From positions 1 through 28,487 of the IMG/VR virus record IMGVR_UViG_3300010354_000453: a stretch of 28,487 bases of DNA. The stretch is one strand, 5' to 3'. This document shows, piece by piece, positions 20,714 through 24,172 of this stretch. Made by a program: the position numbers and the translations under genes. Each line of letters starts with the position of its first letter. Within the stretch, counting starts at the first letter, position 1. The stretch comes from a virus. The notes under the pieces were generated by a model that saw only the letters and a list, made by a program, of their open reading frames with translations, made no database searches and was not told where the DNA came from.

Positions 20714-21699
20714 GTTTAGAGATAATACAGATTAATAAAGACAGGGCCTACGATGAATGGTTGCAGTTTCGTACCTCTGGTCTTGGGGCCTCAGAGATTG
20801 GAACTCTGATGGGTGTGAATAGCTGGAAGAGTCCGGCTGAATTGTACTACCAAAAAATCGGTATCATCCCCCAAAAAGCTGTGCAGAATATGCCCATGTT
20901 TATGGGAACCATATTAGAAAACACTATATCGGATATTTTCGAGTATTGGGACAAGGACGAAGAGACCATGATGAAGAATCATGAGCAGGGAAATAAGGTT
21001 CGGAATCTGTATCAGCCCGAAGGCTATATAATAAACTCTACTTTTCCTCATTTGTTCTTCTCTCCTGATCGCCTGGTTATCACCAAGGATATCAGAATCC
21101 GTAATAGTAAAATTAATATCGACAATGTAGAAGCAATTGTTGAGATTAAGACCATAAGTGGGTGGAGCAGCAAGCAATGGGAAGGTGGAATACCGCCATC
21201 TTACTACTTACAATTGCAGACTTATATGATGGGCCTGGGTGTGAGCAAGGGATATTTGGTTGTTTTGGAGGACGGAAGAAATTTCAAGGTGCATGAGTAT
21301 GATGCTGACGAAGAAATTATCAGTTCGATTATCAATGTAACCGAGGATTTTTGGAAAAGAGTAGAATTAGGTCGAGAAGCATTGGCTAATGGGGCTGATT
21401 ATGAGCAGTACGCACCACCGGCAGATGGAACTGAGGCATATTCTGAGTTCTTAAACGAGAGATTTGCCAATCCGGAGGAGAAAACTATTGTATCTGATTC
21501 ACTGATTGATGAGCATATTGTTCAGTACTTGGAACTTGGGTCTCAGATTTCTCAGTTAGAGGATCAGAAGAGAGAACACACCAATATGATAAAGACATAT
21601 ATGGGCAATAATACTATAATCGATAGTAAGATTGCTAAGGTGACTTGGAGACCCAATCAAAAAGGTACTAGAATATTCCGTGTAAATGAAAGGGGATAA
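20710..21699 (+). CDS. YqaJ-type (lambda exonuclease-like) PD-(D/E)xK nuclease
   Basis: The 329-residue protein has the motif set of the YqaJ/lambda exonuclease family: R21-x4-GAS (26-28), a Glu in GTILEN (E70), Asp in SPDR (D120) and E145-x-K147 in EAIVEIKTIS. These enzymes digest one strand of duplex DNA from an end, making single strands for annealing-based recombination. A helical C-terminal part (~residues 240-329) carries HIVQYLELGSQISQLEDQKR, common in phage versions. I chose the ATG at 20710 because it overlaps the preceding stop (ATGA). An in-frame ATG 18 nt upstream gives six extra residues. No annealing partner (RecT, Erf, Red-beta) is seen in the window. Confidence 0.85.
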   Translation: MSLEIIQINKDRAYDEWLQFRTSGLGASEIGTLMGVNSWKSPAELYYQKIGIIPQKAVQNMPMFMGTILENTISDIFEYWDKDEETMMKNHEQGNKVRNLYQPEGYIINSTFPHLFFSPDRLVITKDIRIRNSKINIDNVEAIVEIKTISGWSSKQWEGGIPPSYYLQLQTYMMGLGVSKGYLVVLEDGRNFKVHEYDADEEIISSIINVTEDFWKRVELGREALANGADYEQYAPPADGTEAYSEFLNERFANPEEKTIVSDSLIDEHIVQYLELGSQISQLEDQKREHTNMIKTYMGNNTIIDSKIAKVTWRPNQKGTRIFRVNERG

Positions 21700-21976
21700 G
21701 GAATGGTACAAAAATATGTGGTCGACACGACAGAATCACCAATGCGAAGAATGTGGTATTCGTCTTCCACACTTTCATCCAATGTTCATATCGCATATCA
21801 TTACAAAGGGAAGTTATCCGAGCTTGAGGCAACATCCCGAAAATTGGATGCTCTATTGTATGGATTGTCATCAGCGTTGGGAGTTCTCTGGGAAGAGAGA
21901 GACGATGAAGACATATCAAAAGGCGATGGAGATAGCTGAGCGGTTGAAGCGAGAGTACCACGAAAGCAAAAAATAA
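21686..21976 (+). CDS. Small HNH-fold protein
   Basis: The 96-residue protein has the zinc ribbon and HNH pattern of small phage nucleases: C20-x2-C23, then H37, N53 in HPENW, C58-x2-C61 and H62. The spacing CEEC...SHI...ENWMLYCMDCH is typical. HNH proteins of this size nick DNA or work with terminase at packaging ends; either is possible. It overlaps the exonuclease by 14 nt. The last ~25 residues form a basic helix. The HNH histidine at position 37 is in 'SHI' rather than 'DHI', as in many phage members. Confidence 0.75.
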   Translation: MKGDKEWYKNMWSTRQNHQCEECGIRLPHFHPMFISHIITKGSYPSLRQHPENWMLYCMDCHQRWEFSGKRETMKTYQKAMEIAERLKREYHESKK

Positions 21977-22241: not shown

Positions 22242-23284
22242 ATCACGGTAGTTTGTTTAGTGGGATAGGGGGTTTTGACCTGGCAGCCGAGTGGATGGGT
22301 TGGGAAAATAAGTTCCATTGCGATATAAATCCTTTTAGCAGAAAAATTTGTAAATACTATTGGCCTGAGGCCGTATCATATGACAACATCAAGACAACTG
22401 ACTTTACCCTTTGGAGAGGAAAAATTGACGTGCTCTCCGGTGGTTTCCCATGCCAGCCGTTTAGTACCGCTGGAAAAAGAATGGGAAAAGAAGATGAACG
22501 CCATCTTTGGCCCGAAATGCTCCGGGCAATCCGAGAAATCCAACCCCGATATGTCGTGGGGGAGAATGTTCGTGGAATCGCTAGTTGGTCGGACGGATTG
22601 GTTTTCGAAGAGGTCTGTTCTGACTTGGAAAATCAAGGATACGAAGTCCAAGCGTTTCTTCTTCCAGCTGTCGCCATCAATGCTCCGCACAAGCGAGACA
22701 GATTTTACTTTGTTGCTAAAAACACCAACCAAGATGGATGGGGAAGTAACGAGCGGAAAGAAGAATCCCAAGAGTGGGGACAGCGGAACCCTAGCACAGG
22801 AACTGATGAGTGGATACGAGCCGACTATGAAGAAGTTAGGAATATTGCCGACACCAACAGCGATGGTAGGAGATGCTTATGCGGACAAAAGTCCAAACAG
22901 CCATTTGAGGCATACTCTAAATATTGCGACACTTGCGGACAGAGGAATGCTTCCGACTCCCAACGCCCAGGATTGGAATTCAGCCAAGATGCCGGGAACG
23001 TATCTAGCATCGGTGGAACGCCACAGGTTGAAAGGAGTAAATCAGCAGTTGACTCTCAGACAGATGACCATGTTTGTACCGAACAAGGTGGACCATCCGA
23101 AACTTGGGAGTACTTCCCAATTAAACCCCCACTTTGTAGCGGAGATGATGGGCTTCCCATACAATTGGACGGACCTGCCTTTCGTAAATGGAGAAAAGAA
23201 TCCTTGATGGGATATGGCAATGCCATTGTACCTCAGATTGCTTACCGTATATTTGCAACCATAAATGAAATCGAAAATAGATAA
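22238..23284 (+). CDS. dcm: C5 DNA (cytosine) methyltransferase
   Basis: The enzyme moves a methyl group from S-adenosylmethionine to C5 of cytosine. Motif I is FSGIGGFDLA (7-16). Motif IV is GGFPCQPFS with catalytic C72. ENV is at 109-111 (motif VI), PHKRDRFYFVA is at ~150-160 (motif VIII) and GYGNAIVP is near 325-332 (IX/X). Length (348) is normal. Between motif VIII and GYGN lie ~160 residues that are polar, low-complexity and Cys/Ser/Gly-rich, unlike a compact target-recognition domain. That stretch overlaps a second open frame at 22380-23207. Likely role: protecting phage DNA from host restriction. Whether the odd recognition region gives specificity is unclear. Confidence 0.9.
   Translation: MNHGSLFSGIGGFDLAAEWMGWENKFHCDINPFSRKICKYYWPEAVSYDNIKTTDFTLWRGKIDVLSGGFPCQPFSTAGKRMGKEDERHLWPEMLRAIREIQPRYVVGENVRGIASWSDGLVFEEVCSDLENQGYEVQAFLLPAVAINAPHKRDRFYFVAKNTNQDGWGSNERKEESQEWGQRNPSTGTDEWIRADYEEVRNIADTNSDGRRCLCGQKSKQPFEAYSKYCDTCGQRNASDSQRPGLEFSQDAGNVSSIGGTPQVERSKSAVDSQTDDHVCTEQGGPSETWEYFPIKPPLCSGDDGLPIQLDGPAFRKWRKESLMGYGNAIVPQIAYRIFATINEIENR
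22380..23207 (+). CDS. Overprinted protein in the +1 frame of the methyltransferase (275 aa)
   Basis: A 275-codon frame runs wholly inside the methyltransferase gene in the +1 frame, from ATG (MTTSRQLTLPFGEEKLTC) to TGA. The product is protein-like. It has two copies of a LPTPxAxxx motif (GILPTPTAM, MLPTPNAQDW), a hydrophobic/Trp segment (LTWKIKDTKSKRFFFQL), and a C-terminus LNPHFVAEMMGFPYNWTDLPF. I recall closely patterned proteins in databases beside or labelled as phage cytosine methyltransferases, with the same 'MGFP-W-LPF' ending. I do not know a characterised function. The LPTPxA motifs fall where the enzyme frame is least constrained. I infer a real, conserved overlapping gene, perhaps a partner or specificity part of the enzyme. 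Confidence 0.6.
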   Translation: MTTSRQLTLPFGEEKLTCSPVVSHASRLVPLEKEWEKKMNAIFGPKCSGQSEKSNPDMSWGRMFVESLVGRTDWFSKRSVLTWKIKDTKSKRFFFQLSPSMLRTSETDFTLLLKTPTKMDGEVTSGKKNPKSGDSGTLAQELMSGYEPTMKKLGILPTPTAMVGDAYADKSPNSHLRHTLNIATLADRGMLPTPNAQDWNSAKMPGTYLASVERHRLKGVNQQLTLRQMTMFVPNKVDHPKLGSTSQLNPHFVAEMMGFPYNWTDLPFVNGEKNP

Positions 23285-23839: not shown

Positions 23840-24172
23840 ATGAGACACGTAGAAAAAGCATTATTGAAGTTTAACGAACAGTGTAAGTTAACTCACTTCA
23901 TTCAAATCGAAAACTTGAAAGACGAAAAAGGGATTGCCCCAATTGTCAAGTTCACTATTCAATCCGATCCTATCGGAGAAGTAGGCGTTAACGGAGTACA
24001 GGCATTAGATATGCTTGAGTATGTTAAATTCTTATTCGAGAGTTTGAACGAGGCATTTCCTTGCAGAGAAAACGCTTTGACAATAACAAAGATTGAAGAG
24101 GCTATTCATTGGCAAGAAGCAAGAACAAAAGACAGGCTCAGAAGAGGAGTTGAAGGTAAAAATACCAAGTAA
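23840..24172 (+). CDS. Acb2/Tad1-hairpin-like protein, candidate anti-CBASS/anti-Thoeris sponge
   Basis: Acb2 and Tad1 are small phage proteins that bind cyclic nucleotide signals and so blind CBASS or Thoeris defence. This 110-residue protein has the helical hairpin signature of that family. A helix (LDMLEYVKFLFESLNEAF) is followed by the conserved turn and second helix PCRENALTITKIEEAIHWQE, then a basic end RTKDRLRRGVEGKNTK. The 'CREN-L-ITK-EEA--W' and 'RGVEGT'-like end are what I remember of the family. The N-terminal ~45 residues are a beta-rich extension, partly with 'GVNGVQ'. It has a -7 box of its own and is the last gene before the structured RNA locus. Ligand and target are inference. 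Confidence 0.7.
   Translation: MRHVEKALLKFNEQCKLTHFIQIENLKDEKGIAPIVKFTIQSDPIGEVGVNGVQALDMLEYVKFLFESLNEAFPCRENALTITKIEEAIHWQEARTKDRLRRGVEGKNTK

Follow-up and report, generated by a model that had tools for sequence, protein, structure and literature searches.

A virus gene for a C5 cytosine DNA methyltransferase and the ORF in its +1 frame most likely encode two chains of one enzyme

INTRODUCTION

The small (β) chain of the C5 cytosine DNA methyltransferase M.EcoHK31I is encoded in an alternate frame inside the gene of the large (α) chain. In M.AquI, the small chain, which carries motifs IX and X, comes after the large one. Both enzymes consist of two chains with motif IX on the smaller one; the large chain of M.EcoHK31I (YGGCCR) has motifs I to VIII, motif X, and a predicted TRD (PMC3404938). 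Overlapping ORFs in C5 methyltransferase genes have been remarked on in the 5093 group of Streptococcus thermophilus phages, in pneumococcal phage MM1, and in Tn5252 (PMC5601072), and the ShiLan domain HNH endonuclease is an out-of-frame protein inside an actinophage methylase gene (PMC11855218). The statement in the original prediction that no functional description was known for such an arrangement was thus too strong, since M.EcoHK31I has been characterized and the streptococcal phage overlaps had been noticed. A general description of a family of overprinted methyltransferases was not found in the literature searched. Here, we describe a methyltransferase gene overprinted in its +1 frame in a window of viral DNA (the whole stretch analyzed, 28,487 nt) and compare it with its relatives in phages and bacteria.

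RESULTS

Motif IX is missing from the methyltransferase frame and lies in the +1 frame

The methyltransferase frame, here called α, matched PF00145 with an E value of 1.2e-39, but the match was confined to residues 2 to 206, and an alignment to M.HhaI likewise covered motifs I to VIII only. In PHROGs, α matched phrog_363 (E = 2.5e-70). Motifs I, IV (PCQ), VI (ENV), and VIII of C5 methyltransferases are all on this one chain (Table 1). Motif IX (R-LT-RE-ARLQGFPD), which is expected on the same chain in the C5 family, is absent from frame 0; the sequence that would be motif IX, LNPHFVAEMMGFPYNW, is found at the end of β and not in α. The original prediction had α return to a normal "motif IX/X" behind its low-complexity stretch, but only motif X is there, and motif IX is in ORF2. 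It had been right, however, in saying that the low-complexity residues of α coincide with the motifs of the second frame.

The second frame, ORF2 or β, had been predicted exactly in its start, stop, length, and register, and both the LPTP units and the AEMMGFPYNWTDLPF ending named for it are present. Its N-terminal half (N-half) has the near-invariant residues W74, C79, L81, W83, and K84 in the alignment of relatives. No model in Pfam or NCBIfam matched β; both recognized α. By its profile match to phrog_1008 (E = 7.8e-23), which extends over most of its length (residues 14 to 266, profile positions 36 to 281 of 329), β is a member of PHROG 1008, whose name, "DNA methyltransferase," is silent on the overprinting and on the motif IX part. 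In Paenibacillus phage records β is annotated as "internal gene" or as a second methyltransferase, and in an Escherichia phage record as "Mte8-like."

Table 1. Features of the overprinted methyltransferase gene (positions in the window)
Feature	Position	Strand	Remarks
α, C5 cytosine DNA methyltransferase, 348 aa	22238..23284	+	Motifs I to VIII and X, without motif IX
α motif IV, GFPCQPFS, catalytic Cys	22442..22465	+	P71-C72-Q73 invariant (alignment of relatives)
α motif VI, ENV	22562..22570	+	E109-N110-V111 invariant (alignment)
α motif VIII, APHKRDR	22682..22702	+	Sequence; A149, H151, R153, R155 invariant (alignment)
α variable stretch, α ~161 to 311	22718..23170	+	Residues neutral, frame open; DNA shared with constrained half of β
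α motif X, GYGNAIVPQIA	23210..23242	+	G327-N328-A329, P332 invariant (alignment)
β (ORF2), 275 aa, LPTP repeats and predicted motif IX	22380..23207	+	+1 frame of α, own conserved ATG
β N-half, residues 1 to 110	22380..22709	+	Overlies α motifs IV to VIII; constraint in both frames
β repeat unit 1, KTPTKMDG	22719..22742	+	Alignment
β repeat unit 2, LPTPTAMVGD	22845..22874	+	Alignment
β repeat unit 3, LPTPNAQDW	22950..22976	+	Alignment
Predicted motif IX on β, LNPHFVAEMMGFPYNWTDLP	23121..23180	+	hhalign to conventional motif IX and single-chain relatives; 68-nt spacing to motif X

Single-chain relatives connect β to motif IX

Mycobacterium phage Quico gp77, Gordonia phage Gudmit gp58, and their relatives carry, all in one frame, motifs I to VIII followed by LPTP repeats, EWMMGWPAGW or EWMMMLPAGW, and motif X. 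The β profile matched this single-chain family with a probability of 96.6% (E = 6e-10), and the family itself aligned with conventional enzymes over motifs IX and X (P = 1.5e-4). When β was compared with conventional enzymes directly (hhalign), the best match fell precisely on motif IX (38% identity, P = 0.0018); it was short, however, and its probability was only 14.7%. Since this direct match is weak, the case for motif IX on β rests on the bridge provided by the single-chain family. In the five single-chain forms for which the spacing was determined, M(GxP) and the GN of motif X are 69 nt apart. In the window, 68 nt separate the M(GFP) of β from the GN of α, as they do in 194 of 208 distinct overprinted pairs; the remaining 14 and more distant members have other spacings. 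A model of the single-chain relative L370 reached a pTM of 0.74 and had M.HhaI as its top PDB match. β modeled alone with AlphaFold gave a low-confidence model (pLDDT of 54.7), as might be expected for a piece of a domain, and neither a profile search of the PDB (E ≤ 10) nor a fold search with this model, which is too uncertain for the search to be informative, yielded a match.

The presence of motif IX in ORF2 and its absence from α explain why the overlap would exist. Because motif IX is in ORF2, is fused to the other motifs in the single-chain relatives, and is spaced 68 versus 69 nt from motif X, ORF2 is most likely the target-recognition and motif IX part of the enzyme, translated from a start of its own into a chain of its own. 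The earlier suggestion that ORF2 is a specificity or partner subunit is upheld as the most likely one. If β were instead an unrelated protein housed in the methyltransferase gene, such as a regulator or an anti-restriction factor, the lack of a PDB or Pfam match and an N-half to which no role is assigned would be easily understood. We consider this very improbable, since motif IX is missing from α and correctly placed in β, single-chain relatives join the same parts in frame, and no β was seen away from an α in the scans.

Programmed frameshifting could also produce a complete enzyme, as a single chain, if ribosomes left frame 0 for +1 downstream of motif VIII and returned to frame 0 ahead of motif X. 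The order and spacing of the motifs equal those of a single-chain enzyme, and actinophage relatives repeatedly switch between in-frame and split forms, as this would have it. However, two shifts would be required per enzyme, and α is stop-free across the whole C-terminal half (C-half) of β, which would be needless if ribosomes left the frame. Moreover, β has a retained ATG, a selected N-half upstream of any shift and, in some Bacillota, SD-like sites, and frameshifting is thus very improbable.

Comparison with described two-chain and overlapping systems

By analogy, the nearest precedent is the two-polypeptide enzyme M.EcoHK31I. Here, too, the large chain has motifs I to VIII and X and the small chain is predicted to have motif IX, as in M.EcoHK31I. 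In both cases, the small chain is nested in another frame of the large one. They differ in that the TRD of M.EcoHK31I is predicted on the large chain, whereas here the variable LPTP region is on β and the matching α residues are neutral. The comparison is one of described motif layouts. The present family is large and occurs in phages and several phyla. The arrangement is not of the M.AquI type, in which the small chain has both IX and X and follows the large one, since here motif X is on α and β is nested. An AquI-like layout was found in phage Kyee (locus L343), where gp79 has motifs I to VIII and gp78, in the +1 frame, has LPTP repeats and motifs IX and X. The ShiLan protein is a mobile HNH endonuclease insertion; here, the out-of-frame protein would be a part of the enzyme itself. 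MM1 (L349) keeps motif IX in frame 0, and its internal ORF has another motif (RYFLS); this overlap is therefore other than that of α and β.

A second type of +1 overlap was observed in conventional C5 methyltransferases with motif IX in frame 0, namely, in L322 and in MM1 ORF14 (L349 1652-2077), with a motif resembling EKYFLSQNAATGILRR or ERYFLSAEMVQRLL. In addition, on the Paenibacillus polymyxa plasmid pAP1 (L350 1296-2786), β ends with a motif IX segment, LNPTWVECLMGFPLDWT, of which a second copy, LNPAWVECLMGFPLGWT, lies beyond stops in the same frame; the segment is duplicated there.

Both frames are under selection

Overlap-aware rates were determined by an OLGenie-like pairwise count with Jukes-Cantor correction and bootstrapping over codons, with dNN/dNS for β and dNN/dSN for α. 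In the part without overlap, the ratios were 1.03 for β and 0.08 for α in a first clade (0.74 and 0.09 in a second). In the N-half, β had a ratio of 0.53 (interval, 0.30 to 0.90) and α one of 0.17, with 0.54 (0.36 to 0.83) and 0.14, respectively, in the second clade. In the C-half, the ratio was 0.23 (0.17 to 0.30) for β and 1.26 for α in the first clade (0.33 and 1.04 in the second). The overlap is real and selected in both frames, and the overlapping-gene analysis proposed as a check gave intervals below 1 for β in the N-half of both clades. In simulations with selection on α only, the mean β ratios were 0.99 and 0.90, with a spread of 0.49 to 1.76 for the N-half in small samples, and because of this wide spread the result for the N-half is the weaker one. 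The constraint on the β N-half is only moderate, and part of its similarity across phyla may be a shadow of the conserved α; a broken +1 frame in one Bacteroidota genome (L414) still weakly matches.

Over most of α 1 to 160 and after 312, the most variable codon position was the third of α, and over most of α 161 to 311 it was the first of α, which is the third of β. When the protein of the β C-half was held fixed and codons were drawn with the codon usage of the window, 16.5 stops were expected in the α frame and none was seen (P < 0.0005). The same was found in the 19 other loci tested, where P was at most 0.003 with codon usage as the null and at most 0.06 with a milder null by permutation. 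Over the β C-half, the residues of α are therefore free and its openness is not, and α is evidently kept stop-free there in order to reach motif X. In its strict sense, the claim of two selected proteins on one segment applies only to α codons ~62 to 159, where both are under purifying selection; over α ~161 to 311, the residues are neutral and only openness is kept.

With α as the fixed protein, a stop-free +1 frame in this one sequence had a chance of P ~0.0055 for the first half and 0.03 for the second (codon usage of the window). These values are only modestly improbable and would, taken alone, fit an open +1 frame that is a functionless by-product of the conservation and composition of α. 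This explanation has next to no chance and is refuted by the β ratios of 0.23 to 0.54, whose intervals lie below 1 in both clades, by the C-half, where β and not α is constrained, by the conservation of β over phyla, and by conventional relatives, whose +1 frame is mostly full of stops.

β is found with α in phages and several bacterial phyla

A scan of IMG/VR with β gave 43 loci, over which α was open in the expected register by both a frame check and a profile check. The converse scan with α, unselected for β, gave 64 distinct genes, and the β ending was in the +1 frame in all full-length ones, a count that leaves aside four incomplete genes (L078, L074, L075, and L088). With the β profile, at least 589 confirmed stretches were found in IMG/VR and 111 in bacterial genomes, mostly of Bacteroidota, of which 80 were kept as loci. 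β frames overlapped an α at offset +1 in 279 of 280 cases, the exception (L148) containing a run of N, and the supposition that ORF2 homologues always lie in this register within a methyltransferase was borne out to that extent. We also looked for standalone β genes and found none in scans seeded on the motif of β itself, which distant ones could escape. The layout does equal that of a single-chain enzyme whose frame changes twice, as it would if two indels had split a methyltransferase through decay or sequencing error, but both frames are open in hundreds of independent contigs and genomes and both are selected; conservation refutes this explanation, to which we assign practically no probability.

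The close family was sparse in genomes of Bacteroidota, with matches in 3 of 198: the intact center genome, a decayed pair (L413), and a weak partial match. Two candidate counterexamples from this phylum were rejected. In L413, β has two stops but α is frameshifted as well, and this closest case of a relative with a broken second frame, which had been named as a possible refutation, thus sits on a broken α. In L414, the α match covers motifs I to VIII only, and β is matched only weakly and in part, in a frame that is broken.

Among 60 C5 methyltransferases of Bacillota and Pseudomonadota collected with the α profile, 11 (L283, L284, L313 to L320, and L331) had a long +1 ORF with a motif IX-like ending and a frame 0 without motif IX. 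The remaining enzymes were conventional, with motif IX in frame 0 in nearly all complete ones; the +1 frame of conventional enzymes usually had 10 to 45 stops, the most open being L322 with 180 open codons. In a tree of motifs I to VIII, the conventional enzymes fell to one side of a branch with an SH-aLRT of 98, and the 58 overprinted enzymes formed one group (SH-aLRT of 91) that spans Bacteroidota, Bacillota, and Pseudomonadota. Tree labels rested partly on pattern matching; three overprinted genes and four split ones were assigned by hand, and seven unclear rows were omitted. The in-frame and split forms of actinophages were interleaved in this tree.

The actinophage loci (L351 to L405) have near-identical parts for motifs I to VIII, followed by LPTP repeats and motifs IX and X either in frame or in +1, with repeated switching among close relatives.

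The start of β

In the two commonest layouts, the ATG of β is built on the last two bases of an α Tyr codon, which is necessarily TAT. This codon was TAT in 51 of 51 cases, compared with 101 TAT to 125 TAC for the other Tyr codons among α codons 1 to 159 of the same genes, the sequences being related and the cases thus not independent events. SD-like purine runs precede the β start in some members from Bacillota (L350, AAAGGAGG; L347, GGGAGG; L284, GGAGGG).

DISCUSSION

On the basis of these sequence comparisons, we consider it highly probable that one C5 cytosine DNA methyltransferase is encoded as two polypeptides by one segment, with β as the small domain. In this enzyme, α would supply the catalytic/AdoMet domain with motifs I to VIII and X, and β would supply the small domain, which combines motif IX with a variable target-recognition region of LPTP repeats. 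Both would be translated from one message, β presumably by internal initiation. β may then fold on α and contribute the LPTP recognition region together with motif IX, and the pair would methylate cytosine at a site set by the repeats of β.

A more far-reaching reading is tentative, and we put its chances slightly short of even: an ancient, cross-phylum clade could be obligately two-subunit from one segment, with β as a modular specificity subunit whose LPTPxAxD units, variable in number, set the target and with part of α as a neutral, stop-free linker. If this is true, specificity evolves in one frame, and the sole limit is that the other frame stays open. 

For an enzyme of two such chains, annotation of many bacterial and phage genes as one C5 methyltransferase would be only half complete, with the specificity half in a frame that is often omitted, and cloning of α by itself should yield an inactive enzyme. 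What was a curiosity in 1995 (M.EcoHK31I) would become a wide class open to testing, and there would be a reason for the peculiar polar stretches of these enzymes. The family would also be a natural system for measuring overprinting, in which one frame is constrained for function and the other only for openness.

The neighbors of the methyltransferase gene include a YqaJ/RecE-like exonuclease and an HNH protein. Among the genes tested nearby, neither a restriction enzyme of a known family nor a cognate restriction gene was recognized, and an orphan, protective methyltransferase is therefore the likeliest; judged from the sequence, the enzyme probably shields the phage DNA from host restriction. 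A 110-aa ORF (window positions 23840-24172) matched the Acb2/Tad1 hairpin domain PF24729 with an E value of 0.0017, below the cutoff, and a small HNH endonuclease-like ORF (PF01844, E = 9.4e-5) lies just upstream of the methyltransferase gene at window positions 21686-21976.
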